64,000 nucleotides of DNA, taken from contig CM066303.1 in NCBI GenBank assembly GCA_033807695.1, positions 1,302,001-1,366,000 on the forward strand, written 5' to 3'. The DNA is from Daedaleopsis sinensis. Lineage: Eukaryota > Basidiomycota > Agaricomycetes > Polyporales > Polyporaceae. How positions within the stretch are numbered: the first letter of the stretch is position 1; every line of letters starts with the position of its first letter. Below the pieces are notes generated by a model. That model was given only the letters and a program-made list of their open reading frames with translations. It ran no database searches and was not told where the DNA came from. Positions 11,168-34,260 of the stretch are shown one piece after another. Both the position numbers and the translations under genes were made by a program.

Positions 11168-12281
11168 CTACACCTCTTCAGAATAACTGTCGCTCGAGCT
11201 GGACTCTGCCCAGCTTCCTCCTGGCCCTCCACCATGTCCTGTCTCCAAATCAGGTTGCCTGTCATGGCCCGTGTGGGTTTGCGCTGCATCGCAATACCCC
11301 TGCACATGCACCTGTTTTGAGGCGACCTTCTCGATCCACCCACAATCATCTAGCACTGCCAGATCTTCCGACGACGTAGAGTCCGACCCCGACTCGGACT
11401 CGGACTCGGAGGTCGCCGCTCCACTGGCAGGCACAATTGTCGACCCGACCGGCCCCACGATGCGGGCGAAGCTCACAGACCCGCTGGAGCCCACAGAGAA
11501 GTGCAATGGGTCGTCCGAGTTAAGTTTCAGTTCCTGGCCGTTCGCTTCTTGGAGGTCCAGGATGAACCGGTAGACGAGTACGCATGACAGCCTGCAGGAC
11601 GGTTGTGCAGTTAGCGGAGGGGGAGGGTACATACGAGACTTTGAGCGAAGGACTTACGGGTCGGTGAATTGGCCGATACCACTTGCGTGCGTGGTTAAAA
11701 CGCCGAGTATCTACGACATGGCAAGACGTTAGTCCCACTAGTTGAGCTTCGCGGATGCGCGTGTGGACGACTCACCAAGGACAGTGTAAAGGCGAGATGC
11801 AAGACGTTCAGGATGAACAGTGATCTGCTCAAACGAGACGTGAGACTTTAGTGCCAGATTAGTAGACCGGTAGGGACTCGGACTAACATGAAGTAGATCG
11901 TTCCTGAGGAACTCGCTTCGTCGTCAGCAACAGTGGAACATTCAATCGACAACGAGGCACAACACACCATTCCAAAGCAAGATATTTGCAAACGTCATGC
12001 GACTCCGCTCGAGGTGGTATGCTCGCCTAAGGTAGTTGACACCCAGCGTCCGCCACGTAATAGCTATCAGGATGATATCCGCGAGGATGAGTCCTCCTCT
12101 CGAGACGACAGGGACTACACGGCCAATCTCGTCATGCTCATGGAAGCATTGCATATCTCGTTTAAGCGACGCACATCTGAAATGACCAATGAGCAATGAC
12201 CGCTCTGCGTCAGCACGCGCTGTCTGCACACATTCAACAGAGGACGGCCCACGTACATGATATTATCCGTTTGTGTCGTAG
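11168..12281 (-). pseudogene. 3' half of DUF6533-like membrane protein gene, cut by the 22-kb element
   Basis: C-terminal exons of a basidiomycete multi-pass membrane protein whose 5' half is at 34254-35152. In minus-strand order the exons read TTQTDNIM (crossing the insertion site), SRGGLILADIILIAITWRT, a 16-nt micro-exon giving GTIYF, SLFILNVLHLAFTLSL, ILGVLTTHASGIGQFTDP and finally LSCVLVYRFILDLQEA followed by an acidic Ser-rich tail ending at 11168. The pattern of two conserved late TM helices, then a VYRFILDLQ-type motif, is typical of DUF6533-containing proteins. Every splice junction is GT-AG and all exons are open, so apart from the insertion the gene looks intact. The first 7 bases (12275-12281) are one copy of the target duplication. 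Confidence 0.85.
12275..12281. repeat. Target site duplication, left (GTCGTAG)
   Basis: The 7-bp direct repeat GTCGTAG lies immediately outside the left tip of the element. An identical copy is at 34254-34260. One base (the final G) could equally be assigned to the element tip, so the true length is 6 or 7. Confidence 0.9.
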
Positions 12282-12289
12282 GTAGATTA

Positions 12290-12650
12290 TACACCAAGGC
12301 ATATTTGCCCTCGGTTTAAAAACCGCGCGGACATTTATGCCCCCTCCCCATCACCGCCCAGGCCTCCGCATCAACCGGACGCCCGCCACATTTTGATGTC
12401 AGCGCCTGTGCCTCCTGCGTGCGCCTTGCCGTGCCTCCCGGCGCTCCTCCCGCCACGTCACCGCATCACCGCAGCCCCCGACATGTCTTTGAACCCTCGC
12501 CCGCCCTCCCGCCCAGCGACCCCGTGCTCTGATGCGCGACGCGCGTGTCGCCTCCGCCTCTCGCGACGCCTCGCACGCCCACGCCTCCTCAACATCTATC
12601 CCCGCCATCGTCCCGTCCCGCCATCGTCCCGTCCGTCCTCCCGCTCCTCT
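12290..12650 (+). repeat. Left terminal inverted repeat
   Basis: This arm matches the reverse complement of 33885-34245 almost base for base. It starts TACACCAAGGCATATTTGCC and soon forms a nested palindrome: the outer arms GGCATA...TATGCC (12297-12341) enclose CGGTTTAAAAACCG. The remainder is C-rich, with the short repeat CCCGCCATCGTCCCGTCCCG near the inner end. The match ends abruptly at about 12650. Confidence 0.9.
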
Positions 12651-12990
12651 CCGCGCGCCCCCCACCCTTTCCCCGCCCGATTCCTCGCTCACGGACAGCG
12701 AGCCAATACCGATTTTGTACGCGCCGGCGCGCCGCGCCCGTCCTGTACCGAGGACCAGGCAAGCATCAGGCGCGCCGATTACGAACTCTATCCTCTCGCC
12801 GCCTTAGGAGATATCTCGGGGCCACGATTCAGTTGCCCGCGTTCCTGGATGTATGTAGTTAATCGAAGCTTAGTCAATAAAGCAACTGCATATGGTCTTC
12901 AGCGAAGTGCATTCAAATTGAATCGCTCAACCAAGTATACAATGACGTCACAATATGAGTAACACGCGTGCAAGAAACATATGCCCTATT
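12651..12990. other. Spacer between left TIR and HicA-like gene
   Basis: Unique sequence, becoming A+T-richer after 12800, with no coding signal. It probably holds the 3' region of the adjacent minus-strand small gene. Confidence 0.4.
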
Positions 12991-13550
12991 CTAAGCTTGG
13001 ACAAAGTCTAGCTTATCCCATTCATACGTTGACACTAACTTCCTCCTCAGACTGGTATCTCATACGCGTCAGTGGTCATGCCTTATTCGAACAAATACGA
13101 AGCAAACGTACTTTTCTTGAAGATCATCTGTTAACCTATGGCTTGGATGAGGCTGGATCGACATTGTTTGCCTTGGTTCAATATAACAATGCACTATATG
13201 TGTACGTACCTCGTCGAAATGGAATGGCCTGCCCCATGGGATAGACGGTCCCGGGACAAAGACGCGTGCTGACCCCCTCCCCCTGCCAGATTTGCCGTTT
13301 TTGCACTTGCCCGATGTCTTGTACGCGAATCCAATACTTTTCATAGCCTGTGTGCACAGTCAGCGCGAATCGTGGCGAATATATCACGCATAGAAACGTT
13401 ACCGCCACAAAATCTGCCCAGTTCAAACGGCACCGCGCCCCGGGTCCTATCTTGAATATGGATGCGAAAACCTACGATGGGTGAGTACTACTTACATCCC
13501 AATACTGTCGTACTCACCAAGTACAGCTTGCCTTTCACGATTATAGGCAT
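12991..13550 (-). CDS. HicA-like small protein, left copy
   Basis: A five-exon gene of roughly 115 aa reading outward towards the left end. It starts at the ATG at 13548-13550 (MPIIVKGKLY) and stops at 12991. A GT-AG intron follows KLYL, another splits DFVA|AMKSIGF, and two more flank the PHPSHRLTDDLQ exon. Key segments are RCRLNWADFVAAMKSIGF, GRGSARVFVPGP, PFHFDE and PHPSHRL. This order (W.DF..AM...GF, then GSx..F.P, then a His/Pro-rich end) is that of the HicA superfamily, a small dsRBD-like fold used as mRNA interferase in bacterial toxin-antitoxin pairs and present as a domain in fungal proteins. The catalytic-type His of a bacterial GSH motif is Ala here (GSA), so RNase activity is doubtful; RNA binding is an inference. 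A near-identical gene (32769-33326) sits in mirror position at the other end. Confidence 0.75.
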
Positions 13551-13819
13551 CTTGCGGCCAGCCGGGAGCTCTGTGAGATGCGCAAGACGCGTCCAGCAAC
13601 GAGCTCGCCGCGCGCTGCCCGGCCCGTCTGATAGGGTTCATCGACGAGCGCGCAGAGCGCCCGTGTCCTCCCCGGTGTCCTGCTTCTGCGCACACCATCC
13701 GTGAGGCGTCGTCGTTGTGAGTGTCCGCAGTCGTCTATCGCGAGCGAGGCCCAGATCGTGTACGTTGCTGTCGGTGCCGCCTTGGCAGTGCAAGCGCAGG
13801 TGAGCAGGTGAGGGGGAGT

Positions 13820-14290
13820 GTGCAGGGAGGCGAGTTGAGTGCGAGGGCCACGGCGACGGCGACGGCCGAGAGCGTCTGCAGAACAATGTGCGAGGGTGAG
13901 TCCTAGAGCCAGTTTGCGAGGGCGAGAGCGCGTCCGAGTGCCAGGGCGTGTGCGCGAGAGTAAGTGCGAGGGTGTGGTCGCCGGCGCACGTGCCCATGTG
14001 AGTGTGCGACGGCGAGGGCGAGGGGCTGTGAGTGCGAGTGTACGCACACGAGGCAGTGTGCGAGTGCGAGTGCGAGTGCGAGTGCGCGAGTTCGAGTGCG
14101 AGTGCGCGAGTGCGAGTGCGAGTGTGCGAGTGCGAATGCGAGGGGGAATGGCGAGGTGCGGGAGTTTGGGGCAATGGCAAGGAGCGGGAGTTTGATCGCG
14201 AGGGCGAATGCGAGTGCGCGAGGGGGAATGCCAGTGCGCGAGGGCGAATAGGTGCGAGGGCGAAGGCGAGCGCCGGCCCCAGCGCGAGCG
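13820..14290. repeat. GAGTGC-type hexanucleotide microsatellite
   Basis: Imperfect runs of GAGTGC/GAGGGC occur on the plus strand, densest at 14030-14150. Long arginine- or serine-rich open frames over this stretch are repeat artefacts. It lies directly inside the left HicA-like gene and upstream of it, between that gene and the transposase 3' end. The remaining non-coding bases 13551-14574 show nothing else. Confidence 0.8.
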
Positions 14291-14574
14291 CGATTAAGGG
14301 CGTACTCGCGGGGGTGCGATGATTAACGCACTCACCAGGGCACGTTGCTTGGCGGGGGTGTGGTATATCGTGCGCCCTGCAGCCGACCGGCCATCGTTCT
14401 GTTGGAGCGCCTTCAAACCTACACGTTGTCAAGGCCGCAGGCCTCGCGCGAGTTCAATATCCGCGCGCCGTGGCGTTGTTCCGAGCGATGTGTGTGGCAG
14501 CGGTTGGCGCGGTGCCCACTTGCTCGCAACGCCTCTTGCTAGATAGTGCGGACTTGCTACGCGCCGCCGCCCTT

Positions 14575-17500
14575 CTAGCTGCTGCCCGCTCGCGGCATGC
14601 CAACACCCTGCTCGAGGTTAGAAAGTACAATGGCGACACGTACTGCGTGCTCACCTCATATATCGTCGTTGGGAACTTGCGCTCCGCGTTATCGAGCAAC
14701 CTCGAGAAACGTACGATTTGCCTTCATTAGGTTAGCTGGTAGGCCCTTGTCAAGTACAAATCATTGCTCACCTCCCAGCATATGCTGCAGCGCCCAATCG
14801 CCCTTCTCTCGACCACTCGATTCGTCGTTGTTCCCAAGCATGTCGCCCATGGCGATAGCTCTCCACAGTGCGAAACATTTCCTCCCCGACTGTTTCGTGT
14901 TCCTCGGTCCATCGCGCGGCGAGCGCGCTGTAGCGGAACCAGTGGACCCGGAGACCTGCAGACAAGATATCAGTAGGCTATCGTATAGTGTTCTTGCTCG
15001 TTACTCACTCTCCTGTAGGAACACACGGACGTTCCCATCCTTGGCCTTCTCGATAAAGGAAAAGTCGCCCCAGATCCAAGATGGGAGGCGATGACTGTCT
15101 CCGAGGGACTGTTCTTCAAATAGCAACACGAACGCCTTGCAGTCATTGTCCTCTAGGGGTTTCAACTTGTCGGTTTCGGCCATCCCTAAGGACAGAAGTA
15201 TCGTGCGTTGCTCACGATACCGGGCTTTCGCTGTATTGATGGCCTTCTTCTTGTTCTCCAGTCGTCGGTCAATAGCAGTCGTTGCAATGACTCCTGAACA
15301 GGTTTTGCGGCGTGCTGCCAACGTCGCGTGTGTTGTGAGATGTACTCGCAGGTCGTCGAGGGCATCGACCGCATAGCCGCGCCGAAGTTGCATCTCAAAC
15401 CGTACTGCTTCGCCCAGGGCGTCGTGCTTGCGAATGGGCGGCGGATAGTCTGAAGGTAAAGCAAGCACCGGTAGGTCGTCCAGTTGGGTCACTAACTCTC
15501 CCCGCTTGAGATCCTCTCCGTCCGCACGCCGCCGTTTGCGACGCTGCGCATGAGAGATCGGGTTCGGATGGGCTAGTCCGTCATCGTGGGCGGCTTCATG
15601 CACGAGTTCAGCGTTGCCCGTCCCTCCCACTGGGCCGCGCGCAGCTCGCTCACGTGCCGCGGGGGTCTCCAACGTGTTCATGGCCAGGTTGACACACGGC
15701 TGCAAATATTGGTCGCGACGCTCACGAAGCCCTTTGATTCGTTCTTCCATGGCAGTGATTTTGGCCGCCAGAGACTTATCCAGCGCTTTCTTCGACGCGG
15801 TCGACTCGACGTCCTCGCGCAAATCGCACCTATGCCCCATGTGAGGAAAGACGTGGGGCGTGGTAGAATGTTACCTACCGGTCCTTCTCGAGCTCGAGTA
15901 TGTCGTGGATAACACCAGCGAGCCCGGCGCCGCGCGTATTGCCCCCTTTCGCCAACTCTTGTATCATCTCAGTGGCGATCTCTTTGGATGTAAGACCTAT
16001 ATGTCGCCCCTCTATGAGTATTTTTGGACATAAGGTGCGAGACTCAGTACGACCCACCAAGCTCTTCCGGCGGCTCGTACTCATTCGGAAGGCTGTGATG
16101 TTCCTTGATATTCACCACTTTCTTCTTCCAATCGGCCTCGCGCATTTTCCATTGCTCTAGGACGTCTGGCCCGCACACATCTTTGATGCTGTCCTCGAGA
16201 GTCTCGAGATACTCGGTGACGCGCGCACGCTGTTCCTCGCTATCGCTCAGTTTCTTCAGCAGATTCGTCACTGTGGTAACAATGTCAGACGGGAGCTGCT
16301 GCATTGGCACTGGCTTACCCATGTCGTGGAGATGCCGGACGTTCTGGTCGTTGACGACAGCGTTGAGTACGTCGTGGCGGTGACCTGCCGACATTTCTTT
16401 GGTCGCGCGAGAAATCGCATTGATCCAGGCCCACAATCTCTCGCACGTCTCGCCATCGGTCATACAGCTGCACGGGAGTAAGTTAAGCGAAAATCGCTGG
16501 CGACATTCGCGTCGGTGCATCTCCATATGAAACTTGGGAACACTGGCTCGAATGTCGGGCAGATCCGCAGCATTGATGGACTTCATTTGTTCCAGGAGCT
16601 CGGGGGTGAAGTTCTCATCCAGTCGGATCCCCAGACGGACGATGTACTGACACATAATGTCGTACATGAGGACGATGAGGTGCAGTGGGAGGTATTGTTG
16701 CAGAGCCGACACGAGGGCCACATCCACTGTCACGAACCTGCGCGGGCGGGTATCAGCACAACGGACTGGGACCTAGGAAATGTGTTGGACGCACCGTTCC
16801 CCACCCTGAAGGTCCACGATCCCTCCCGGCAAAGTGCACATGTGCCTGCACACGACCGCTACGATGCCTGACACACTGCCTTTATATTTGCCGTACTCCA
16901 TGGCGCCGAACTCGGAGCATGCACTCGTCTGAATGCCTCAGTCAGCGACGAGCGTATGTATGCGCGATACACGTACATCTTTGTACTTGGTTTGAGGAAC
17001 TTTGGCTTGATAGGTCGCAAAATCTTGCTCGTGAACGAAGTACCCTGCACCCATGCTCAAAGGGAAATCTGCTGGGTCAGTGTGTTTGTACTTCAAATTG
17101 AAATGGAAGTTGCCGTCGATCGATGCGTGGAGGGCGTCAACGTGTCTAAGCAATGGCCGGTTTGAATGACAAGCTCTATCGCGACCATGGGTACACGTAC
17201 TGGTAGGCCTTGTCTCTCCCTTCCCAGCCCGGTCGCATGTTGACCCCCGGTAACGGGCACGCCGGGCAGGATACTGTGAGCGCGCGGGGTTGTAACTCTT
17301 CGTTCGGCCGCACTCCTGCTCGTCGACACGCTTTCAAAAAACTATACTCCCGGAAGGAGGTGTTCATCTCGCGGTAGCGTTCCTGAGACGAGTTAAACGC
17401 AAAGCGAGCATGAGGCTTTGTTGCCACTCACGGCGACTTCTTCGGTCCTCACCCCGTCCGTACAACGCTTGAGATATTGCACGTAATCGTGCAGATTGAC

Positions 17501-18043
17501 TTGGGCTTGCAACGTCAGTCCATAGAAGGCTTCTAGCGTCGACAGCGTCATCGCGGTCTTCGGCCGGTCCCAAGTCGCCGGCCAAAGACCTGCCGCAATC
17601 AACTGTTCGGGCTCGCTCGGGCCAGGCGAGCATCGACAGTACGCCACGTCCACTTGCATGAGGCCATGTTCGTGGATGATTGTCGTGTCGCGGATATATG
17701 CCCGCGGGGCGCTGCCGTTCTGCAGTTTGGGGATGTTGGGACACGATTGCGCTCCATGACCGAGGAATAACACAAAGTCTAAGTCACTCATCGTCATTTT
17801 TTCCCAGATTCCTTGGTTGTTGTTCCAACGTCGCAGCCGGTCGAAAGGACGATGGCGATGCCCGTGCTTGATGCAGTTGCGACATTGCTCTGCCAACAGG
17901 GGGCAATCTTGACACTTGTACCATACGCGAGTCTCGTTCACTTGCTGGCATTCAGAACAATGCTCCCCGTTCCGTGGTGGGTGCTCGCGTTCATCAAGTG
18001 AGTCTTGGGCCTTCGGAGCCGGGTCTCGCAGGAAATGGGCCAT
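14575..18043 (-). CDS. CxC2-type KDZ transposase
   Basis: Transposase of a Kyakuja-Dileera-Zisupton element. The N-terminal CxC2 cysteine cluster reads HCSECQQVNETRVWYKC, CPLLAEQCRNCIKHGHRHRP, then IIHEHGLMQVDVAYCRC. The catalytic region spans several exons. First comes ASIDGNFHFNLKYK with PLSMGAGYFV (about 17135-16985). Next comes CSEFGAMEYGKYKGSVSGI with GGIVDLQGGE|RFVTVDVAL. Then follow VLMYDIMCQY and, near 16440, MTDGETCERLWAWINAISR with SAGHRHD. Later exons form a helical Glu/Arg-rich tail (LRVHWFRYSALAARWTEEHE), with a plausible stop at 14575. Inspected junctions are clean GT-AG, for example donors at 17431 and after KAYQ, and no internal stop is needed. The start MAHFLRDPAPK is the first Met of the exon. 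An extra 5' exon in 18264-18737 (disordered, basic) is possible because related proteins have longer N-termini. It is transcribed opposite to the four genes on its right. Confidence 0.9.
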
Positions 18044-20453: not shown

Positions 20454-23028
20454 ATGCCACCGCCCTCTGGCTCTCCGATGACCGGCCCTAGCGATAGGGT
20501 ACCTCCTTCCACGCCTCCTAAGTTTCCGAAATTCAAACGGTACGGACGTGAGCATGAGCCCGACCATCCTACGCCTCGCGCTCCCTCCCCCGAGGTCCAG
20601 GAAGCGTTGGATGACCTGGTACACGTCCCCAACATGTAAGTGTGACGTTTCAATGGTCGCAATGAGAGCACTCACACTGTTTGCAGTTCGAGCAAAGATG
20701 TCGCTCTCGAGGTAGAAGGCGACGACCTATCTGATGGTAGCGAGTCCCCGGACGCCGAATCTTCGCCCTCCTCCGCCACAGAGGATACAAGTGAGCCTCC
20801 TCGTCTGAAGGTGAATCGCTGGGGAGATATAGCGTTCCGTAAGTCTCGTGCTCATATTCAGTGAGTCACAACGATCTGACGTACTTCTAGTTCCGACGCG
20901 CAAGTGGTATCAAGCCCTTGTTGCAGCTCAAGCCGGCTTCGATCGCATGGTCATCACTTCCCCTAATACGCAATGGGTACCACAATATCCTCGGGAGACG
21001 GCGGTGATCGAGACGTACCAGGATGGACGCTGGGGCTTGCATGAGTACTCTGCGCATCCCCAGGATCTCTGTCGGGGATGGTGGCACCTGGCGTGCATTC
21101 CGGTAGAGCGTGCGTATGGAGCCGCGGTGTTGTTCGAGGTGCTCGACTGCCACAGGGATTGGGAGGCCGACTCTTCACTCGGTTTCGATGGCCTGGGGTA
21201 CATTACCCTCGACCGGCAGGTGGAGCTCATGGAAGCTGCGAAGGACGCCATCAGCGCTTGTGAAAAACAGAAGTTCCCCAAGTCAGTCCGCAAGTACGCT
21301 CGTTTTCTGTCCACCATTCTTCAACAGTTCGTCGATCGCATGCGTCATCTCCCCGCGACTCCGATGGTGGCAATTGCCGTCGCAGCGCACGTCCAGCGGC
21401 TAAGTCTGGAGCTCGTAGGCCTGAAGAACTACATGCGCGTCGTCGTCCCCAGGCTAGAGAGTAACAGAGACTACGCAGATGACGTTCTCCCTTATCTAGG
21501 GGCCTTCGTGCGTGAAGGGAGCGATGCCGCGACATTGACTCGAGTAGGTATCCCCGTCTTTTTCCTGCGCCCGTTGACACATCAGCTCGCTGTGTGGGCG
21601 GTTGTGGAGGCGTGCTCAACATTTTACGTCGTGGAGACCAATCGCTGCAACCCCCCAATCCTTCATCGCCCGCAGGCTTTCGCCGGCGTGGGGAATTTCT
21701 CAGGGACCTGGCAGCGAAACATGGTGCTCGCCGTTTCGAAACACTTGGGCGGCGCTCACCTGTCCACGCTATCGCTTGCTGAAGTACCAGACGTCCCGGA
21801 CTCGCGCAAACCCCCGGCGGATAGTGAGCAAGGGAAGGAGAAGCGGCAGAGGTTAGAAGGACCAGAGGGACGAGGGCGGCAGTTGGCGATGGTGGCAGCA
21901 GCGAAACCTGTGGGGGACGTGCCCTCTTCCCAAAAGAAGGCACACCGCGGCCGCCGTGGCGGGGCTAAGCGCAATTCGGCGGGAGGGCGCGCTTCCGCTA
22001 TGCCTGAAGGATCAGGCGCCTCCCAGTCGTCGGCCAAAGCGGCCGCGTCACCAGCTCGCCAGCCGGCCAAGACATATGTCGCCCCTCTGTTCTATCAACT
22101 TTCCGCAGCATGGGAGATCGCCCTTCAAGCGGCCTCCCCCGTTCCGCGCACAGCTAGCGCTTTTTACTTCTACCCGCCGCCTTTCCTTTTCGATACAATC
22201 TCCGAAGCCGGGGCGTCCATCGAACCTCTCACTGGCGCGCGTGCCGCCTTCGCGCGCTACGATGACAAGGTCAATCGATACATCCACAACTTCGTCCGAA
22301 TCCGTCCTTTCCTACGTGCGCGCATCTTCGACCCGTCCCTCACCAACAAACCCCTGAGCATTGCCGAATGGCGTGCGGCTCTATGGGGCGACTACCAGCC
22401 CAAATGTCATCCTATCCAGCAGCAAGGGTCCGCAGGAGATCGTCGGCGCGCGAAACGTCGTCAAGACGGCCACAACGACGTTAGCCGTGTTCTATCGCGC
22501 GTCGCCAACTTCCCGTCGTACGACGCGATGATGGTGGCGCCATATGACGGCGAGGAGGTCAATTACTTGACCGCGTCCTCGTGTCCCGCACTCCGTCGGC
22601 GCATCCTTTGGGAATGTCATGAGATCAACTTCAGGGCGGAGGTAATCGCGCTGGACACCCTCCTGGTCGAGAGCCCGGCTTGGTGGGAGGTTCACCGATG
22701 GCAGCGGGAGGCGGACATCACCACTTTGTGGGGCGAACCGCAAACAGTAACAAGTGTGGTGCCCAGGTTAGATGACGAAGATCGCCAGTTCCGGTGGCAT
22801 TCAGATCCTGCCGACCCTTGCGCTAAGGCAACCCTGATCGCATTTCTCGCTGTGATCAAGATCTGGCCGGAGTGCCCCGTTTTCCTGGCTCAAGCCGCGC
22901 GATGCGAATGGGACGACTCGGAGTTTGCGGAGATCCAGGCCCAGGCGATTCAGTTCTACGTACGTACTTTCGTGAAGACCTTCCTGCGCCTCCCGACCCC
23001 CCCGATCCCGTATCCTGTAGGTATGTAA
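20454..23028 (+). CDS. Transposon-borne protein of unknown function, cargo gene 1
   Basis: Exons 20454-20635, 20687-20838 and 20891-23028 give 823 aa; the start is MPPPSGSPMTGPS. Residues 1-100 are Pro/Ser/Asp-rich. The folded part begins at LPTRKWYQALVAAQAGF and includes LSLELVGLKNYMRVVVPRL, YLGAFVREGSDAATLTRVGI, PVFFLRPLTHQLAVW and, after a basic Ala/Lys-rich linker, RRRILWECHEINFRAEVIAL and FLAVIKIWPECPVFL. I recall proteins of this layout as a large anonymous family in Agaricomycete genomes, but I cannot name a domain. The last codons are followed by GTATGT, so a short extra 3' exon is possible. It is the first of four co-oriented genes and appears intact. Confidence 0.7.
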
Positions 23029-23278
23029 CGCACATACATGGACGATTTTGTATTTAGTATTGTAAATGTATCTCCACCTAACTGACCAGACATTTGAGGT
23101 AAGTAATCCTCATCTCGATTCCGGGCCTTGGCGTGCTGACAATGTGACTAGTGTGACCTTTACAACCGGGCGAGTCGAGGATACGCAGACTCTGTCCCTC
23201 TTTCGTCTAAGTTCGCCGCTCACCGTAAGTCTCCCCCCTCAGCTCGTCCCCCAGCACCTCCGCCACAACTCTACCGCT

Positions 23279-25494
23279 ATGCGTCAAAATTGGAAAGCGA
23301 CGGACTACGAAGTCGATTTCATACGTGACCAGTACAACTCGCCCCCGATTCAGACCCTGCTGGCGACTGAAGGGCCTGATGCTTTCGGGAAGGCCACCGA
23401 CAGTATTTGCCAGGCCTTGCTCGCTCATTTCACCAGTCCTTACCAAGGTGAAACCCTCGACGAATATCGCAAGCGACGCCGCAACGCCAGTGCGAGGCAG
23501 AGACCGAAGATCTTCCAGTTGCCCCCAGAGACGCAGGCGGAGTGGGATGCGCGAATGACGCACATCATGCCTCAGGTGTGTAGTCTAATGACGTTCCATT
23601 CGAGATACTGAGGCGTATTTCTAGTACATCTCTGACCGCATCCGGGCGTGGCATCGCGAGGCCAAGAAATACGGATCTCCCTCTGCCCAGATGCCTCCCA
23701 TTCCCACTATCCCTGCCCCGAAAAGGCACCGGGCTGTCAGCGCCTTCGACGTGTATTGTAGGCGGACGCAATACGGCGAGGAAGTCAACGAAGACTCCAT
23801 CGCCGAAGGAAGGTTCGATGTTGGGGCCTACCGTCGTGACGCTCACTTGCGATGGACCGTCATGACCGCTGAGGAGCAGGCGCCGTTCGAGGTGTTGGCC
23901 GGCGAAATCAACGGCCGTGCGTCTCCGTCCCCGTCCGAAGATGAGGCCATGGTAGAGGCCGAGTTGACCGTCAAACCCCCGTGAGTTTCGCCTGTGCTCC
24001 CTGTGTTATGCGCACACTAACACGTCACCTCAGGCCCGCCGAAAACATAGCGGAGTGGCTGAGTGAGGTTCTGAACGTGTTGCACACTCGGTGCAACTGG
24101 GCAGGCACCATCATGGTCGGTGGCCCCGATGAGGATGGGGAGACGAAGACTTTCATGTGAGCAACATGCTTCATTATGTGTCTCAACGCTGATCGTGGCG
24201 GGTCTGTAGTCGTTCGATCGGACAAAATCGTGACGGGACGGATTTTCAGACAGCGCTCCAAAACAGTTGCAAAATCAGTTACACCGCTCTAGAGAGTATG
24301 CTCGCCTACTGGATTGAGCTAGGCCGGAAGGGTACGTGAGGAGTAGTGATCTTACTCCGACGCTGATCATGATTCCAGATCCCACCGAGGCCGAGAAGGC
24401 ATCTGAACAGGAACGATTGCTACACATGACGATCCAATTACTCGCGAGCAAGAACGTTGTGAGCCGTGATGACGAGAACGTGTTGGTCCGGTTGGGGAAC
24501 GCGATCCAGGATAGTACGTGCTGGTCCGTGTCTACAACTGGTCTAAACTCTGAGCTCCCCCGCAGTGTTGACTTCGGGGAGCGATGGCGGCCGGGAGGTC
24601 AACGACGAACGACGTTCTCCTGATGCTGCAGATGACATGTTTGCAGCAGCGAACGACGAATACCTCCGTCAAGTGGCCAATCGCACTCCGTCTCCCATCC
24701 CGCCTGAACCCAGTGCCCCCATAGAATTCACGCAGGGAGAGCGATACACACAAGTGGATGACATCGTTCAACGGAGTGCGTGTACCATCCTGAGGGAAGT
24801 CTGAAGTAAGCTAACTTAGCTTTGCAGTGCCGATGACTATGGCGCTGGCGGCTCGGATGGACGAGGCCTTCGACATTGAAGACATTCCCCCACCCCTCAG
24901 TACAGACTCTGACGGCGACAACATGGTAGATGCCCAGCGTAGTCAACCGCCATCCCCACCGGGGGGGAATGTCGCGATAACTACCGAAATCGTTAACGCT
25001 CCATGGCGCCGTACTCCTGCAGGCGAGGCATTCGCAGCGGGTCACATGGGCACTACTACGACCGTGACCGCCGCGGTGACGGTTAACGAAACTGGCACAT
25101 TCGGCGTGACATACGCGTCCTCGAGCGGATCCTCCGCGACACCGAGTGGGTCCTACGCGACACCTGTTACCTACAACAACTCGAAGAGAGCGGCCGACAC
25201 CGAGGAGGCTCGCGCCGGCGACGCTGCCCCGAAGAAGAGGCGCCCTCGCGCGCGCAAGTCGGCCGGGGTACCCATGGCCGACGCCAACGGGGCCGAGCCC
25301 TATTCTCGCCCCCATCGCGCGTTCAAACCCACTGCGAAGATGGCGCAGCTAGTCGAGTAAGTAATTATCACCAGTGCTGGCGTCGTCGTGTTCGCATCTC
25401 ATGGGTCACCAGGGAAAAGGCCAGGAAAGGGAAGAGAGGTAGTCTGGGAGCGTCGGGTTCGGGGTCGGCAGGTCCAAGCGGCAGCGTCGCTTGA
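23279..25494 (+). CDS. HMG-box-like DNA-binding protein, cargo gene 2
   Basis: Multi-exon gene starting MRQNWKATDYEVDFI. Exon 1 is 23279-23575 and exon 2 is 23625-23980; at least four more short exons run to a final exon at 25413-25494. Exon 2 carries KRHRAVSAFDVYCRRTQYGE, then AYRRDAHLRWTVMTAEEQAP and FEVLAGEI, which has the spacing of an HMG box (basic entry, SAF..Y, helix, W..M..EEQ.PFE). The C-terminus has a basic patch (APKKRRPRARKS) and continues across a GTAAGT intron at 25357 into EEKARKGKRG and a Gly/Ser tail. A nuclear DNA-bending role is inferred. HMG domains have been reported as partners of KDZ transposons in basidiomycetes, which fits its place here. Confidence 0.7.
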
Positions 25495-25722
25495 AGATAT
25501 TAGAGAGTATTGTGGCACTGGGATATCTAGAATATTTCGCGGGCGAGATTTGATTGATATAATATGCGTTAGTGCGCTCCAGCGCCTCACTCACGGGTTC
25601 CTTGCTCCCCAAGCTTCCGGTGCGACTAACAGTAGCGCGTCTAGCACATCACTCCGAACTGAACGAATCGCTCGCCCCACCTGTTCCTCCTCCGCACCAC
25701 CACCACCTGGTCCTGTTCATCA

Positions 25723-26868
25723 ATGCAAGCTCGCATCGTTTTTTGGCAAGAGGTGAGAGCTCACAGTTATGTCCTAGCGAGCCCATCTGATCTCGCCCAA
25801 GGATGGCGACTTTCCGCTGTTGCGGACGGTTGCTTTCACGCCGGGCCAGAGCGTCGCATTGCGCGAAATACCCTGGCTCGTCGACATGTACGACGACTTC
25901 AATCCGACACTCTTCGAGGTCTACTGTGTGGAGCGTGGCATGTGGGGTGTCAAGACTCTTCACCTAGGACGTTTGAAACGCCTTGAGATTATGCCAACAG
26001 TGCTGATCCGATCCGCTGGCGTTGAAGACTGTCCCTTGTTTGGACACGAGCTCGAGAACATCTACCGTGACTTGGGATGGCCCGCTGCGTCAGTGAACAT
26101 CCCCGAAGTAGACAACCGTCTAGAGAAGTACTACCGATGCTTGCGAGTGGTTCTTTGGACACAGGTACGCCGTTCTGCGAAATTGCCAGCACGAGCTGAA
26201 CTTGTCACAGAACGGCAAGGACCCGCTGGTGCACATCATCAACTTCGGCTCCGACAACGAGGTCCACCTCGAAGATTTCTTTCTCCTCGACAACGATTTG
26301 GAGGACCGTGTCAACGTCCACCTATACTACCCGGACGAACAAGATTGGCACATTCAGACGGTCATGTGCTCCTTCTACGTCGAACCCGAATACGATACCA
26401 TTCTGCTCAAATTCACGGAGGTGACGGTGACGCTAGGATTTGGACGTGAGGTCGCGGAGTTTGCGAAGCTATTCCAACCACAGGAGGATTTCGGGGAGTC
26501 AGCGTACGCCACGGACGCACAGGTGAGTATCTTCCTTGGTAAACGGTCTCGGCTCACACGTGTGTCAGACGTGCGCCGAACTGGCCAGGCAACTCTCAAA
26601 GGGACTGGACGTTCACACGACATCTGCCTTCAACTATCGCGCGGGCGTCGAACGGGCGGAGTGGGTAACCGACTTCGAGGATAGTGACCTTGGTAGCGAG
26701 GACGACGGTCCTGGTGGTGCAGCCAGTAATGGGGTTGATAACGGCGGAGTAGGTACTGTAGGGGAGATAGCAAACGCGGGAATGACTGGGGAGAAGCGCA
26801 ACCGCCCCGACGACGGGTCCGACGACGAGGATGCAGAGCACCGTGTACGTCGGGCCCGGCACGAGTAG
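25723..26868 (+). CDS. Transposon-borne protein of unknown function, cargo gene 3
   Basis: Four exons (about 25723-25752, 25802-26163, 26211-26520, 26569-26868) encode roughly 330 aa. The start MQARIVFWQE precedes an intron and then DGDFPLLRTVAFTPGQSVAL. Further segments are YDDFNPTLFEVYCVERGMWG, YRDLGWPAASVNIPE, HIINFGSDNEVHLEDFFLLD and VTLGFGREVAEF. The tail is acidic (DSDLGSEDDG, DDGSDDEDAE) and ends RRARHE. No Cys/His cluster or catalytic signature is visible and I do not recognise the family. All exons are open, so it is not obviously decayed. The start is less certain than the rest because the first exon is short. Confidence 0.6.
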
Positions 26869-27412
26869 AGGAACCCAGTTACGCACTGCTCACGCTTCAA
26901 CCTCCTTACCTGTTACCCACGGCGATGTATCCTTGCGCGCGCAAATAACCGTATCGTTGGCTCACGCTGCAGGCCTCGCCTTGCCGCGCCGGTTCGTCGT
27001 CATCGGGCTGAGCCAACGCTCGCAGTAGCAATTCTGCCTGCCTTCACTCCGTGGGCTGTGTGGACCAGCAGATCGATTTCGGGTCTCAAGATGGCGACGT
27101 CGGTTGGAAGAACGTTTCAGCATGCGTTTTGTGCTAGTTCTTTTGCACTCCGCCGCTAGCTAATAGGATATTTTTCAGGGACCCGGGCGGGCATGTATAT
27201 ATGCAACCGCGCAGATACATCTAGCATGGTAACTGGGGGAATATTTCTAACATATTATTATCATTAATATCCAAACATATATTGAGCCCTCAAAGCAGCA
27301 CCGCCGCTGGACAAACCTATATACTACCACCCCGTGTCGTACTCAGATCGCTCTTCTTACCACCTCCTCTCAGGTCCAACCACTCTCGTTTAAACTGTAA
27401 CCCTCGACGCTC
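26869..27412. other. A+T-rich spacer between cargo genes
   Basis: The stretch 27170-27290 is markedly A+T-rich compared with the rest of the element (TATTATTATCATTAATAT at about 27253). It may serve as promoter or terminator sequence. No gene is seen. Confidence 0.5.
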
Positions 27413-29165
27413 ATGCCTGTCCACTCGCGCCTCACCTCCTCCCGCCACATCATCGTGCCTCTCCGGGACGCGCCGACCAGCAAGTACAGTCCCGAACGAC
27501 GTGCTTTGTGTCACGTCGACGCCGACAAACGCTTCCCTGACTTCCCGGATGTTTGCCCAGCGTGTCAAGGGCGCACCACGCGCCTCTGGCTCCAAATCTG
27601 TTACGATGACCCTATTGCTGGACTCTGGAGTATGGCGGTGAGTGTAACACGACTAGCAGGGGACCCACTCGAAATCTGACGCTACGTTTGCAGTGCGACA
27701 ACAAGAAATGCCGCCATGTGCACATTCCCGAGCAGGTTGGGCCCACGGGGATGCACGCGGCCCAAATCACCGCATTGGTACACGAAGAGGCCGCATCCGC
27801 CGCTACCCAGTTGCAGATCCACGAGGACGCCAAGCTCGCCCGAGAGCTGGAAGCAGCCCAACGCACGACGGCCAGAAACTCGAAGCGGGCGGGAAAGATT
27901 CTAAACACTGTTTACCGCGAGGAGACGAAGAAGGCGACCGTGAAGGCCCGCGTGCGCAAACAAGACGCAGCTGCCCATTCGGCAGCGAAGGCCCTGCGCG
28001 CCAAGTTGGCTTCGGGAGACGTGGGTGTTACTCGTCGTCGTGCCCCCAAGGTGTGTGCTGCCGATACTACACAATCCCACCCACTCACAGCAGGTATAGC
28101 AGAAGGCTCCTCTCCCCGACGTTGAGCGCCAGGGAGCGATGCTAGTTTGGACGAAGGTCCGCACATCTATATCCAGAAGAGTATTGACCACCTGCTAACT
28201 ATGAGACCTCTGCTGCCAGGACTCGGAGCCCCCTACCGAGCATGACATCGTCATTCCGGCCAATGGCAAGTTTAACATCGCGAAACACGCCGCACTGCTC
28301 GGCCTCTACTTCAAGTTCTGGGTGGCAGACGAAGCGGCCTGGGTGTGGGAATTGAACTCACCCGTTCAAGTCCCCCGCGACCACACCACTGTCCTTGTGC
28401 GCATGGATGGAGTGCGCGCCCCGCAAGGCTTCGCTGACCAACTCCACCTCATGGAGAATTACCGCGGGGACACGGAGGCCGCGCGCGCGCGCAATCTCAA
28501 AGCGGCGCAGAGCCACTTGATCGACGTCAACGCGCGCGAGTGGGACGTCGGCCACGTCTGGGTGACATTCTGGTGGAAGGTATGTGGACGTGCACAGCCA
28601 TGCGTACGTGTCTGACAACGCGCTCTAGGACTATGTCGAACCCCGCGTTTGGAACATGGCTTATAGCCGCCCCACCGTGATCAACCTCAGCGATCACGAC
28701 GAGGTCATCAACCTGTGGAAACAAACTGGCTTGCCCGCTCAGGTAGACGTCTGGATGCAAGCCCGCGGCGACTGGAAGACGTACGACATCCGGGATGATA
28801 TTCCGGTTCCAGGTACACAGTTCTTGATGCTCATCCGCTTTCCCGACATCGACGGCCTCGTCAACTTCCCGGTGGAGCTGTACGCCCTGGAGCACCCCCA
28901 TGCTGCACGCCTACCGTTCGCATCCATGCCGCGCGCAAGCCGCGCCCTTTCGTCCGCAAAATGTCTCGCCCGCGCCGGCACAGGCTCCTCGTCCGACTCA
29001 GTCAACTCCGCGGTCAAGAATAAGACGAAGATGAGCGGCAAGTCTCAACGCGGTGCTCCCGCGGGACCCTCGCGCCACGAAGGGGATTTGTCGGAGGTGG
29101 GCGTCGCTGTCGCTAGTGCGGTTGGGGGGCCCGCGGCGATGGACCTGGACGACTGGATGTTTTAG
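27413..29165 (+). CDS. Cys/His-cluster protein of unknown function, cargo gene 4
   Basis: Exon 1 (27413-27637) and exon 2 (from 27694) join to make the cluster CPACQGRTTRLWLQIC...CDNKKCRHVHI, four to six possible zinc ligands interrupted by an intron. An Ala/Lys/Glu helical region (TKKATVKARVRKQDAAAHS) follows. Later exons give IAKHAALLGLYFKFWVADEA, HVWVTFWWK|DYVEPRVW and QVDVWMQARGDWKTYDIRDD. The C-terminus is Ser/Lys-rich and closes MDLDDWMF. The Cys cluster is reminiscent of the CxC-type clusters that accompany KDZ transposases, but I cannot assign it to a numbered class. It is the last of the four co-oriented genes that read towards the right end. Confidence 0.65.
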
Positions 29166-30027
29166 AGAGTGCGCGTTCTAGAACTGCGCGCTATATCTTC
29201 AACTAACCTTATGTCACACAGGGCCCCGGGGTCATCGTGCAGAATGCTCGCGCCTAGCTGATAGAATATTACAGGCGCAGCCCGCATGAGACCATTTCCA
29301 CTCCTTTCGTCTAGCCTTTCGTATGCGGTACGCAGCCATTTTCAACGCTCGCTTCAATACCACTCACCGCCAAGAGTCTTTGATATTTCTACGCGCATCC
29401 ATCCCTAATAAGTGTCATGTATCTACGTATTAATTATCGCAGGGTTGCGCCCGATGAGCTTTGGGTGCCCTTCGGGAGAGCGCGTACGCGCATAACTACA
29501 ACGAGTCATCACAGACGATAACCGGCCATGAACGCGATCGTATACAAGTGCCACTGCAGCGCGCGGGGTTGCACAGCGATGGCCGTTTGAGATGAGTCTC
29601 AACGCCTGCATCCTTTTGGACAAAGGGTTACTGACGCATGTTACTAGGGCGAATCGGGAATAGGAGCAAAGTAGAGTGCAGCAGTATGCGCTGGGCACGA
29701 AGGGAAATGCTGTACTCGTACTATAGACAATGGACCTCGCGGCGCGCGGGTGTCGCGAGCGCTTGGGCGCGCGGGTCCGCATCAATGTGCGAACATGCGG
29801 CTCCCGTGAAAACCGACCCGTGCGCGTCGTAGAATACTGACCACACACTCTCTCTCCCAACATCTCCCCCCCCCGGACCTACTCTGTAACTCCGACCAAC
29901 CACGTCTCAACGCAAGCTATGGGATTCGAGTTAACAAGGTATCAATGCCCGGGCGATTACAGCGCGCACTCGTCTGCAGGCGCGCAAGACCGAGGGGGGG
30001 ACGGGGACGTGGAGCGTACGGTGCGCG
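29166..30027. other. Spacer, no gene seen
   Basis: There is no convincing coding segment. The minus-strand frame 29423-29863 shows no splice structure or conserved pattern. Confidence 0.4.
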
Positions 30028-30796
30028 ATGCACCAATGTAGCGGTCAGACGACACTTACCACGTACGACATCCAACAGGGAGGATGGGGTAGCGATGACT
30101 GGCAGCGCGAGCGTTGGGGAGACCCGGTTGGAGGAGGGTGGGGACCGAATGCAGACCAGGTGAGTATCCCACCTAGAGCCCCGGTTTTCAACGGCCGATT
30201 GGGCGCACCTAGGAGACGTCGAATACATGGGCGGCCCCGCCTCCTTGGGAATCAACCATAGATGTGCTGGAAGATACGAGGGGCCCTGACACCGACATTT
30301 GGAGGCCGGGAACAGCAAGACTGCTCATCCTTCCGAGCGTTGCCCGGCGCGACGCTGACGTCGCCGACATTGAAATCCGAGTGGACTTGCCTAATTTGGC
30401 AGACGATTCTGAAGGATGGAGACGGTCGAGAGCGGTGAGTGCCAGACATACGCATACGTGCATCGTGTTGACCCACGATAGATCGCTTTCCCTACTACAC
30501 TGGATGCTGCCACCACCTGGAGGGATGGCCCGCCAGGAGACTTGCCCATGGACTCATTGTTCCACGCCGACAGACATGGGCTGTCGCAGTTGTTGGCCAA
30601 CCTGCGCTACTTCGGGTCCGGTGCACGAAGGGACGCACAGCTTGAGGATGAGTGGCGGCGGTTCACCCTGGTCGTTCTGGAGATCTGCCACGACATACAT
30701 CTTAGCAACGACTCCCGCTTGACTACGCTTTGGGTAGAAGCTCGTTCGTTTTTACCGGTGAGGACGCTTCTGGGATGTCAGGTACCACATCGCTGA
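30028..30796 (+). CDS. Possible fifth element gene, structure unresolved
   Basis: Open segments read MHQCSGQTTLTTYDIQQGGW up to a GTGAGT donor, DTDIWRPGTARLLILPSVAR with ADVADIEIRVDLPNLAD up to another GTGAG donor, and DLPMDSLFHADRHGLSQLLA with LEDEWRRFTLVVLEICHDI. They look protein-like in composition, but I could not join the first two in phase, so the gene may be misread or broken. No family is recognised. Sequence to 31400 contains further short open frames without support. Confidence 0.3.
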
Positions 30797-32009
30797 CTAC
30801 CTGGGCCATGATGAAAGCCGGAAGCATTCCAGGGCGGGGAATCGGCGCAAGCCATGGCAGACATCGCGGAAAGAATGGATCGATGGGCGAGCGGCCCCCG
30901 CAACTGACAAGCATGGAAGGAGCGGCTCGGGCGCGTGGCGCCACGAATCTTTGGAGTCTGTGTGCATTTTGTAACGCGCGGACAGGAACAATGGACAGCC
31001 GTTGAGTGCCTGGGTTACCAGAAGGAGGACAAATCTCACATAGTGTGACCACGGGTAGGTCGGTGGACGATCACTGCTACCTGCAAGAGCGTTCGATTGT
31101 TTGTGCCGAGGGCGCCATGGATGAAAACTGCCAGATGCACTGATATGGAGATCGCGTTTCAAGCCGAGACTGACCTCGGAGTATGGGCTAAGAAAGTGTG
31201 GATTTGCAAGGGTGAGCAGTCGACTTCGATGAGCACACACAAGAACTCACTTCTGCGCACTTTTGCGACCAGAGCCAGCGAAGACCAGAGCGAGCGAACG
31301 GGACATCAGCGAGACACGGAAGCCGACGATGCAGACGGGGCGAGTGCCGTGACCCAAGTCCGCGGAGTGCGCTACACGTCCGCGGGCAGATAACTCCCAC
31401 AGGCCTCCACCCTGCCCAGAGGAGCGGGTAGCTGTGGCGGTCGCCGTCGAGCTCGCACTCGCACTACGACACCGCCAAAAAGGGTTTGCCGACATCTCGT
31501 GGGGTGGCAGGCGTCCTCCCTGACACACCAGGCGCTGCACGCCGACGGGCCCATGCGGCAGGACCCATCACTCGCAACTCGAACCTCGAACGCGAGTGAA
31601 CACTTGTTTGCATCGTCGCCGCTCACTGGTACCCTGGGCAACAATGATGACAGGCGCACTCGCACCTACACTGGCGCAGGTCAAGGTCGCGGAAGGGGTG
31701 CGGAGCACAGTCAGTCGCACTTGCGCAACGCACGTGCCCTCGCCCTCACCGTAGCCGGTGTGCCAGATGGGGGCGGGGACGAATTGCACGCTATGAGGCC
31801 CAGGCGACACATGTCACTGTACGTGTGGGGAGCACGACGAGTGTCTTTGGGGTCAGCGTCGGTGTCGCCCTCGCACGCGTGGGTTTGGCGGGCGCGCGTT
31901 GTGGGTGCGAGACGCGAGCGACGCACCCCACGCAGCGTTGGCGGCCTCGGTCTCGCCTTCGCGATCGTCGTGGCTGTGGCAGTGACCGGCGTGGTAGAAG
32001 TTGAGGGAG

Positions 32010-32560
32010 GGGGGCGCACGACGTGTTCCGCGTGAGCGACGCACGCCCGGAAGTCGAGCGCGAGGATGGCGTGGCCGTCGTCGTCGCTGTCGCCTGCGTT
32101 GTGGGCACCGTGGCAGTTGGGCGAGGGGGGCGCGCGACGCGCCACGCGTGAGCGACGCCCGCCCGGGAGTCGAACGCGACCGTTGTCGTGGCCACCGTGG
32201 TAGTTGGGCGAGGGGGGCGCGCGACGCGCCACGCGTGAGCGACGCACGCCCGGAAGTCGAGCGCGAGGATGGCGTGGCCGTCGTCGTCGCTGTCGCCTGC
32301 GTTGTGGGCACCGTGGCAGTTGGGCGAGGGGGGCGCGCGACGCGCCACGCGTGAGCGACGCCCGCCCGGGAGTCGAACGCGACCGTTGTCGTGGCCACCG
32401 TGGTAGTTGGGCGAGGGGGGCGCGCGACGCGCCACGCGTGAGCGACGCCCGCCCGGGAGTCGAACGCGACCGTTGTCGTGGCCGTCGTCGGCGGTGTCCC
32501 CTGCGTCGTGGGGACCGTGGTAGTTGGGTGAGGGGGGCGCGCGACACAGGGCCGCACACC
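32010..32560. repeat. Tandem minisatellite, 87/116-bp units
   Basis: Units share ACGCGTGAGCGACGC; the recurring GTGAGCGACG lies at 32148, 32235, 32351 and 32438, giving periods of 87, 116 and 87 bp. The longer unit differs by a 29-bp insertion. Overlapping arginine-rich open frames on both strands (about 31711-32586) come from the repeat. It lies just upstream of the right HicA-like gene, mirroring the microsatellite near the left one. Bases 31401-32009 hold nothing I can name. Confidence 0.85.
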
Positions 32561-32768
32561 CGTGCCCTTGTCTGTGACGATAGCAAGATGATCTACAAGA
32601 AAGGGAGGGAACAGACGTTGAGCGCAGGACTGCGCAGGACCGAGGAGACCGGCGCTTTGTGCGCTCCCCGGCGAACTCTATCAGAGGGGAGGCCGAACGC
32701 GGCAGCGCGCGTCGAGCTCGTGGGTGGACGCGTCCCGCGGTTCCAGAGAGCTGTACCTAGGAAGAAAC

Positions 32769-33326
32769 ATGGCTCTAGTTGTGAAAGACAAGCTGTACTC
32801 GGTAAGTCGACGAGACGAGGAGCTAATGGAGTACTCACATGCGCGTAGGTATTCGCGTCGATCTTCAAAATCGGGCCTGGCGCGCGGTGTCGGCTCAACT
32901 GGAACGACTTTGTGGCGGTAAAGTCTCCAACCAACTGTGACTCGATGTCCTTGACGCTGACAGGTAGCTCAGGCTATGACAAGCATTGGGTTCACGTACA
33001 AGAAGAATGGGAAGAAGGGCAAGAAAGTGAAAGGCGGCAAGGGAGGAAGAGGGTCGGCGCGCGTCTTTGTCCCGGGACCAAACATCCCGTCGCAGAGAGC
33101 TTTCCACTTCGACGAGGTAAGTACGTTACGCTGATGCATTGAGCACGACATAAACGTTAGGACCTAGCCGCACCCGAGCCACCGATTGACCGACGATCTT
33201 CAAGAGGAGTACGTGCTTCTCATCTATTAATACTAATGTACCCACTGACCTGTACCGTGTACCAGGATCAGGAGGAAATTGGTATCGACATATCAATGGG
33301 ACAAGAGCGATTTCGTGCACGCGTAG
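32769..33326 (+). CDS. HicA-like small protein, right copy
   Basis: Five-exon paralogue of the gene at 12991-13550, about 115 aa, reading outward towards the right end. It starts at the ATG at 32769 (MALVVKDKLY) and stops at 33326. Shared segments include FASIFKIGPGARCRLNW, AMTSIGFTYKKNGK, GRGSARVFVPGP, FHFDE and PHPSHRLTDDLQE, followed by RRKLVSTYQWDK. Intron positions are the same as in the left copy, including the split within DFVA|AM. By eye the two proteins agree at about four residues in five, clearly less than the terminal repeats do, so the genes are not simply part of one homogenised repeat. The GSA motif again lacks the bacterial HicA-type His. Function unknown; the position suggests a role linked to the element ends or the element's expression. 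Confidence 0.75.
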
Positions 33327-33884
33327 GAGTCGATGACCTCAGGATGTTCAGATGTCGACAACGTTGAGTTAGCCAATATGACGTCATTTTGTACATTGAT
33401 CGGGCTAGATATATACATTGCATGCATACACTACTATACTACTGATGTACACATAGCGCCCCCCGTCTATATTGATACTGCGTACAGCACCCTCCGCACG
33501 ACCAGGGAGGGCAAGGGCGCGCGAGAGGTCCAGCCTGAGACACGGTAAGTACGCCTAGCATGGCCCAAGATGAACACATGTAACGGCGTGTCGGCGTCGG
33601 TTATTATGCTCGGTGTATCGTCGGGACTCGGGAGACCAGTTTGATGAAGTGAAGTCAACGATGTGGGCTGGCAGTACCTCAGTGAGGCGGCAGCGACAGA
33701 GCATGCGTCGCTGGCCAGTGGGACAGAGCTGCCAAGAGGACAGGCGCGGACAGGCGCGGCGGAAGACGAGACGGGCGACAGGCGGGCGAGACGCGCTGGG
33801 GAGACGCACCAGAGGAGCCGGCACGGGGTCGCTGGGCGGGAGGGCGGGCGAGGGTTCAAAGACATGTCGGGGGCGAGAGGAGCG

Positions 33885-34245
33885 GGAGGAGCGGGAGGAC
33901 GGACGGGACGATGGCGGGACGGGACGATGGCGGGGATAGATGTTGAGGAGGCGTGGGCGTGCGAGGCATCGCGAGAGGCGGAGGCGACACGCGCGTCGCG
34001 CATCAGAGCACGGGGTCGCTGGGCGGGAGGGCGGGCGAGGGTTCAAAGACATGTCGGGGGCTGCGGTGATGCGGTGACGTGGCGGGAGGAGCGCCGGGAG
34101 GCACGGCAAGGCGCACGCAGGAGGCACAGGCGCTGACATCAAAATGTGGCGGGCGTCCGGTTGATGCGGAGGCCTGGGCGGTGATGGGGAGGGGGCATAA
34201 ATGTCCGCGCGGTTTTTAAACCGAGGGCAAATATGCCTTGGTGTA
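33885..34245 (-). repeat. Right terminal inverted repeat
   Basis: Inverted partner of 12290-12650. One substitution was noticed (CGCGAGAGGCGG context near 33970). Just inside the repeat, about 50 bp of it (GCACGGGGTCGCTGGGCGGG through ACATGTCGGGGG, at about 34008-34060) is duplicated at 33821-33873, an extension missing from the left end. Bases 33327-33820 are otherwise unremarkable. Confidence 0.9.
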
Positions 34246-34253
34246 GACGGCTC

Positions 34254-34260
34254 GTCGTAG
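34254..34260. repeat. Target site duplication, right (GTCGTAG)
   Basis: Identical to 12275-12281 and immediately outside the right tip GTGTAGACGGCTC. On the minus strand it is the CTACGAC that codes part of a Ser-Thr-Thr in the interrupted gene. Confidence 0.9.

Follow-up and report, generated by a model that had tools for sequence, protein, structure and literature searches.

A 22-kb multigene KDZ element inserted in an exon of a DUF6533-like gene of Daedaleopsis sinensis

In the polypore Daedaleopsis sinensis, a window of 64,000 nucleotides (contig CM066303.1 of assembly GCA_033807695.1, here C4:1302001-1366000, in a searched genome of 51.6 Mb and 24 contigs) contained an element of 21,972 bp, window 12282-34253, lying between the two halves of a gene for a DUF6533 membrane protein. 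The element, here called W, was assigned to the KDZ transposon superfamily and carries, in addition to its transposase (gene A), six further genes or conserved coding regions (B to G). Its features, all gene models being predictions of this analysis, are listed below in window coordinates.

11400-12274, minus strand: 3' part of the interrupted host gene, partial model (from the joined frame and homologues)
12275-12281, no strand: left target-site duplication GTCGTAG, exact 7 bp
12282-12289, plus strand: left outer octamer GTAGATTA, outside the inverted repeat, close forms of which are kept in family copies
12290-12649, plus strand: left terminal inverted repeat (TIR), 360 bp, complementary to the right arm
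12991-13690, minus strand: left copy of gene G, small, inverted relative to the right-end copy; partial model
14610-18043, minus strand: gene A, KDZ transposase with a CxC2 cysteine cluster (Pfam matches, conserved blocks, homologue P0013)
18043-17432, 17382-17201, 17145-16977 and 16928-16795, minus strand: gene A, exons 1 to 4
16737-16058, 15996-15879, 15829-15009 and 14955 onward, minus strand: gene A, exons 5 to 8
20478-23028, plus strand: gene B, model of 799 amino acids, no Pfam domain; conserved partner of W's KDZ lineage
23279-24724, plus strand: gene C, model of 391 amino acids with a weak HMG-box-like stretch
24839-26868, plus strand: gene D, model of 469 amino acids, no Pfam domain
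27413-29165, plus strand: gene E, model of 511 amino acids, no Pfam domain
30213-30904, plus strand: region F, conserved coding blocks, without a gene model
32641-33325, plus strand: right copy of gene G
33821-33874, no strand: third, partial copy (54 bp) of a TIR segment, adjoining the right TIR
33886-34245, minus strand: right TIR, 360 bp, complementary to the left arm
34246-34253, plus strand: right outer octamer GACGGCTC, close forms of which are kept in family copies
34254-34260, no strand: right target-site duplication GTCGTAG, exact 7 bp
34261-35050, minus strand: 5' part of the interrupted host gene, a DUF6533 membrane protein (from the joined frame, domain and homologues)

A preliminary description of the locus had reported GTCGTAG at both tips, and the heptamer was indeed present at 12275-12281 and 34254-34260. 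It had also placed the tips at the ends of inverted repeats of about 360 bp. The alignment of left and right ends that it had proposed yielded arms of exactly 360 bp, gap-free and 100% complementary (372/380 positions in the gapped extension); nevertheless, these arms begin 8 bp inside the tips, and the outer 8 bp are unlike at the left and at the right, so that the tips proper are asymmetric.

When the element and one copy of the duplication were deleted, the minus strand read in frame from ...FGCGYTVST into TQTDNI..., and the joined flanks formed one open frame, ...DPIFGCGYTVST followed by TQTDNI.... The in-frame join proposed earlier, which ran into TQTDNIM, thus held through TQTDNI; the host exon probably ends just past this point, and the M is likely intronic. 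The spliced partial host protein matched DUF6533 (PF20151) at 2.5e-11, above the cut-off; no Pfam match was obtained with pieces of either half read in one frame. Since the right-hand half contains the whole domain, the join itself was tested by the alignment of homologues. BLASTP returned ten database proteins at E ≤ 0.001, the closest of which, P0040 from Daedaleopsis nitida (63% identity over 92% of the query), runs GYTVSTTQTDDI unbroken over the insertion site; its annotated protein lacks the subsequent stretch. These results agree with the earlier proposal that the halves of one DUF6533-like gene lie on either side of the element. No empty allele was present in the assembly, where the right flank is single copy (the sole other match spans 81 bp). 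From its sequence, the interrupted host allele is predicted to lose function.

A search of the genome with the left end of W gave 45 matches, W's own among them. Eighteen copies had both ends recognisable and in opposite orientation, namely three long copies of about 22 kb (W, 21,972 bp, on C4; E10, 22,081 bp, on C10; and E2, 21,985 bp, on C2) and 15 short copies between 852 and 1463 bp in length. An exact 7-bp duplication flanked every one of them (chance, about 6e-5 per copy), adjoining near-identical outer octamers, one of the left type and one of the right type. Among duplication lengths of 3 to 15 bp, an exact match in 18/18 copies occurred solely at 7 bp. The independent sites number 17, because short copies L020 and L021 share their flanks and represent one segmental duplication; these two (C2:4021726-4023251 and C1:4878071-4879341) have the same target-site duplication, and L020 contains 255 extra bp. 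By eye, no strong target motif was seen in the duplicated sequences. Seven fetched loci (L014, L022, L024, L025, L028, L035 and L036), with one recognisable end or with ends in an unexpected arrangement, stood outside the duplication test. Two of them, L028 (C3:2617197-2619680) and L035 (C11:482956-484956), are single family ends about 10 kb before B genes (C3:2628107 and C11:493251), and are probably two more long copies with unrecognised far ends.

Gene A matched the KDZ profile PF18758 at 9.1e-29 with a single exon and at 7.4e-34 with an early spliced model, and the CxC2 profile PF18803 at 1.4e-23. In an alignment that took in 12 of 27 database proteins, residues D275, D374, E444 and E447 (numbering of the early model) were invariant in 13/13 transposases; we take the D, D and E residues to be candidate catalytic residues. 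With homologue P0013 as a guide, the joins of exons 1 to 5 were stop-free, as were those of exons 5 to 7, while the next join was drawn from the homologue match alone. The model is partial at its 3' end, conserved coding continuing to about 14610. The transposase was open across the modelled exons, joins 1 to 7, as the preliminary description had stated. The named database relatives of the transposase, of B and of the host protein are mostly polypore proteins.

To the right of gene A, on the plus strand, are B to F, and the small gene G occurs at both subterminal positions in opposite orientation. At the protein level, blocks of A to F were common to W, E10 and E2, and G was clear in E10 and weak in E2. 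Ratios of nonsynonymous to synonymous substitution (dN/dS, Nei-Gojobori) between W and E2 were 0.06-0.20 in 11/11 blocks, four of these values being rough upper bounds because silent sites were saturated; between W and E10 they ranged from 0.08 to 0.52 over 11 blocks. Judged by these ratios, at least five extra gene regions look preserved by selection. Searches of Pfam with models B, C, D, E and G found no family above the cut-off. With a three-sequence profile of C, 13 solved sequences scored E ≤ 5; HMG boxes aligned to the same stretch made up 11 of these (best E, 0.039), which hints at an HMG-type box in C, although Pfam showed no HMG match (E ≤ 1) for C as a single sequence. Among solved structures, profiles of B and E retrieved nothing at E < 0.05. 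Gene G may resemble HicA-type domains. A tandem array of 203-bp units (31994-32545) lies beside the right copy of G, and a GAGTGC-rich stretch (13889-14269) beside the left one.

The association of B with a KDZ transposase extended throughout the genome. The genome has 16 B loci at ≥36% identity. In 13, the frame stays open for at least 704 of 713 residues; of the remaining three, one was split in two by a later insertion and two were in other pieces. A KDZ core lay within 7 kb of B at 14/16 loci, in all 14 upstream and on the opposite strand, and the other two loci had none among the matches listed. Downstream of B, D was found at 13/16 loci and E at 9/16. The pairing drew on 113 KDZ entries among those listed, out of 175 matches in the genome, with N-terminal pieces dropped. 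One pairing, with KDZ core L050, was rejected because the core has the wrong orientation and belongs to an insert that interrupts a B gene. This B gene (C11:1087695-1103633) is broken near residues 404-410 by about 14 kb holding L050, a core of another clade, and is apparently a case of one KDZ element nested in another.

A different arrangement was observed for the TET/JBP genes. Of 22 Tet_JBP matches in the genome, 21 were followed by a KDZ core in the same orientation, and none lay within 30 kb of a B locus. In a FastTree phylogeny of 61 KDZ cores of this genome alone, 14 of 15 B-labelled cores formed one clade (support, 0.951), the exception being L050, and 12/12 TET-paired cores another (0.955), with W's transposase outside the TET-type clade. 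The tree did not include 9 of the 21 paired TET cores, 8 of which scored equal or nearly equal to a retained one. The node above the B clade had a support of 0.049, and thus the B clade has no firm position within KDZ. Fetched TET-type copies shared long pieces about 97-99.9% alike, and their right end, ...TATG, is in keeping with CA..TG.

Distant B-like genes (22-31% identity) were also detected on C7, C9 and C3, at the following positions; inspected by eye, none of them has a listed KDZ core in its vicinity.

C7:1058834-1060781, C7:2845304, C7:3008804-3010744, C9:162335, C3:2724317-2726285 and C3:4467944: distant B-like genes

Another, at C4:3347130-3349031, has a KDZ core about 2 kb away on the same strand. 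Plavaka was rejected as a partner of these genes, as no listed Plavaka match lay within 40 kb by eye, both lists being lower bounds.

The preliminary description had read the near-identical TIRs as a sign of recent insertion, and this argument did not survive the comparison of copies. Left and right arms were 100% identical in W (360 bp), 98.8% in E10 (339 bp) and 94.1% in E2 (759 alignment columns). Between W and E10, by contrast, the ends were only about 76-77% alike and the cores 82% in nucleotides; the arms of any one element thus seem to be homogenised. The TIRs of a cut-and-paste element are, moreover, not reset upon insertion. For both reasons TIR identity is not an insertion clock, and we rejected it as such. 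The subterminal G genes seem to have swapped places, since the left G of W is 77.6% alike to the right G of E10 and only 68.7% alike to the left one, with tips and core collinear. Movement of the family was better documented by five short copies (L011, L012, L015, L016 and L017), 99.1-99.9% alike over 582-973 bp and located at five sites with five different duplications; judged from these sequences, the family has moved recently. As for W, the closest B protein to its own was 91% identical, and the frames left open beside the site and in the transposase would fit an insertion that is not very old.

On the contig, W occupies C4 positions 1,314,282-1,336,253 and sits in the pheromone-receptor chromosome region, flanked by two outer STE3-like genes, with about 63 kb to the receptor/pheromone core; no effect on mating is claimed. 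The flanking genes are the following (window coordinates).

3265-4182, plus strand: STE3 pheromone-receptor-like gene, on one side of the element
45128-46047, minus strand: STE3 pheromone-receptor-like gene, on the other side

Six of the seven STE3 loci found in the genome were on C4, at 1,305,265-1,418,166, together with both pheromone matches above the cut-off (1,401,503 and 1,405,327). Scanning the window for pheromone genes with a simple CAAX pattern gave three matches, none convincing. The window also contains two HET-domain (heterokaryon incompatibility) genes, at 9240-10595 on the minus strand (3.9e-10) and at 48473-49465 on the plus strand (4.7e-12).

The KDZ superfamily was reportedly defined by Iyer in 2014. 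Its PF18758 core, the invariant D/D/E residues, the CxC2 cluster and the 7-bp duplication place W, by sequence, in this superfamily. The 14 element open reading frames scanned had no match to DUF3435, the tyrosine recombinase of Starship elements. The Tet_JBP profile, with its 22 genome matches, had none in the window, although a distant TET-like protein could score below the profile.

The TET-bearing Kyakuja elements of Agaricomycetes have 7-bp duplications and CA..TG ends without TIRs, whereas Dileera and Zisupton generate 8-bp duplications (Kojima 2025, PMC12730594), a length at variance with the 7 bp of our 18/18 copies. Kyakuja and W have in common the KDZ transposase, the 7-bp duplication, their occurrence in Polyporales and an extra gene beside the transposase; W, however, has G..C ends, 360-bp TIRs and at least five other coding regions with no TET/JBP match, where the TET-bearing Kyakuja families described carry TET/JBP (PMC12730594). 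KDZ1-3 of Cryptococcus neoformans, which jumped into FRR1, resemble W in having a CxC cluster in the KDZ transposase and long TIRs (139-241 bp), and in inserting into a gene with target duplication. They differ in being 9.2-11 kb long, with CxC1 in place of CxC2, duplications of 4-8 bp and, in the accessible text, the transposase as the only gene named (PMC12810828), against the 22 kb, CxC2, 7-bp duplication and multigene content of W. These insertions, and the elements delimited by their duplications in many fungi (PMC12730594), run counter to the earlier remark that fungal KDZ elements with exact ends and a known target are rarely delimited. For Marasmius oreades, KDZ ends have been characterised, and its genome also yielded defined non-autonomous elements; TIR motifs and non-autonomous relatives are thus common to both systems, while genes like B to E are not named in the portion of that source available (PMC8290104). 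A KDZ element is also described in the MAT locus of Cryptococcus, another basidiomycete mating-type region; it measures about 11 kb and lies inside MAT, in contrast to the 22 kb of W and its distance of about 63 kb from the core (PMC12510652). The MSH4 insertion of Pleurotus was rejected as a precedent, being, in the accessible part of its description, a CxC5/CxC6 insert with no KDZ transposase nearby (PMC7641404). A literature search by title and opening of the abstract surfaced no gene set like B to E, which is weak evidence, since these genes are nameless.

The reading we favour, at a probability of about 0.82, is that a KDZ element was inserted in the DUF6533 exon by its own transposase or that of a relative, and that the extra genes B to G likely aid its movement or its escape from silencing. 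The transposase would cut outside the asymmetric outer octamers, stagger the target by 7 bp and paste the element; the short copies, too small for a transposase, would be mobilised in trans by a transposase of the same family. The insertion itself we regard as virtually certain. That B to E serve the element's own life cycle is probable from their sequence conservation; they may be transposition cofactors or anti-silencing factors, and C might be an HMG-type DNA bender. Their role may be set beside that of the TET/JBP dioxygenase, which would serve another KDZ lineage of this genome. Going further, we put forward tentatively, as a possibility still short of probable, a separate KDZ lineage free of TET/JBP, whose own toolkit, five or more proteins of unknown fold with one possibly of HMG type, would supply both cofactors and silencing defence and drive a swarm of 1-kb copies via the asymmetric tips.

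Several observations weigh against this interpretation. Antisense frames were also among the conserved blocks, so that a shared open block alone is no proof of a gene, and some W-E10 dN/dS values were weaker (F, 0.52; C, 0.39 and 0.46; D, 0.35; one block of E, 0.35). The structure model of B was poor (mean predicted local distance difference test score, 58.3) and 0/37 matches in a fold search with it reached E ≤ 0.001; with a poor model and no fold found, the role of B to E rests on conservation. The recent movement of the five short copies is not tied to a particular long copy, W included, because their ends were only about 74-76% alike to those of W (about 72% to E10) beyond the shared tips, and their inner sequence was unlike W's. 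No near-identical sister of W was found in the assembly, the closest long copy being 82% alike over the core. The lack of overlap between B and TET is by itself weak (P = 0.046), and a search for the start codon of the host gene did not find it.

The alternatives were weighed against the same data. A join error of the assembly between unrelated contigs, a caution raised by the preliminary description itself, is hardly conceivable: no point in its support was found, and it is rejected because family tips and a matching 7-bp duplication are present at both junctions and homologous proteins run continuously across the site, so that the 22-kb exon insertion of the preliminary description stands. 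It is unlikely that the extra genes are passenger host genes, a chance cargo possibly serving the fungus. The lack of a Pfam family or an assigned fold is compatible with such an origin, as is the existence of distant B-like genes away from listed KDZ cores; however, chance cargo would vary between copies, whereas the same genes occur in the same order and orientation in elements with nearly saturated silent sites, with a KDZ core beside B at 14/16 loci and D after B at 13/16.

Somewhat less improbable than passenger cargo, but still rather unlikely, is that W is fixed and dead, an old insertion retained because recombination is lacking near the pheromone-receptor genes. The lack of a near-identical copy in the assembly would agree with this, and so would a location in the STE3/pheromone region, where transposons may persist; against it speak the transposase and B to E, open as far as modelled, the joined host exon, open on both sides, and the recent movement of short relatives. 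That W is a Kyakuja sensu stricto that has lost its TET gene is improbable to the same degree as passenger cargo. The 7-bp duplication is as described for Kyakuja, but the G..C ends and 360-bp TIRs contrast with the CA..TG ends without TIRs given for the TET-bearing families in PMC12730594, and the TET-type KDZ elements of this genome belong to another clade, with another right end (...TATG) and another gene arrangement.

Four features of W were missing from the preliminary description: the extra genes and their conservation, the existence of short relatives, the asymmetry of the tips and the position within the pheromone-receptor region. In the KDZ literature consulted, attention goes mainly to the transposase and to TET/JBP. 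A lineage that lacks TET and has selected genes beside the transposase would offer a delimited group of proteins in which to look for cofactor or anti-silencing functions, and the presence of TET and TET-less lineages in one genome would make a direct comparison of their methylation and activity possible. For such work, the exact ends, the 7-bp rule and the short copies are ready substrates with which the roles of B to E may be tested.

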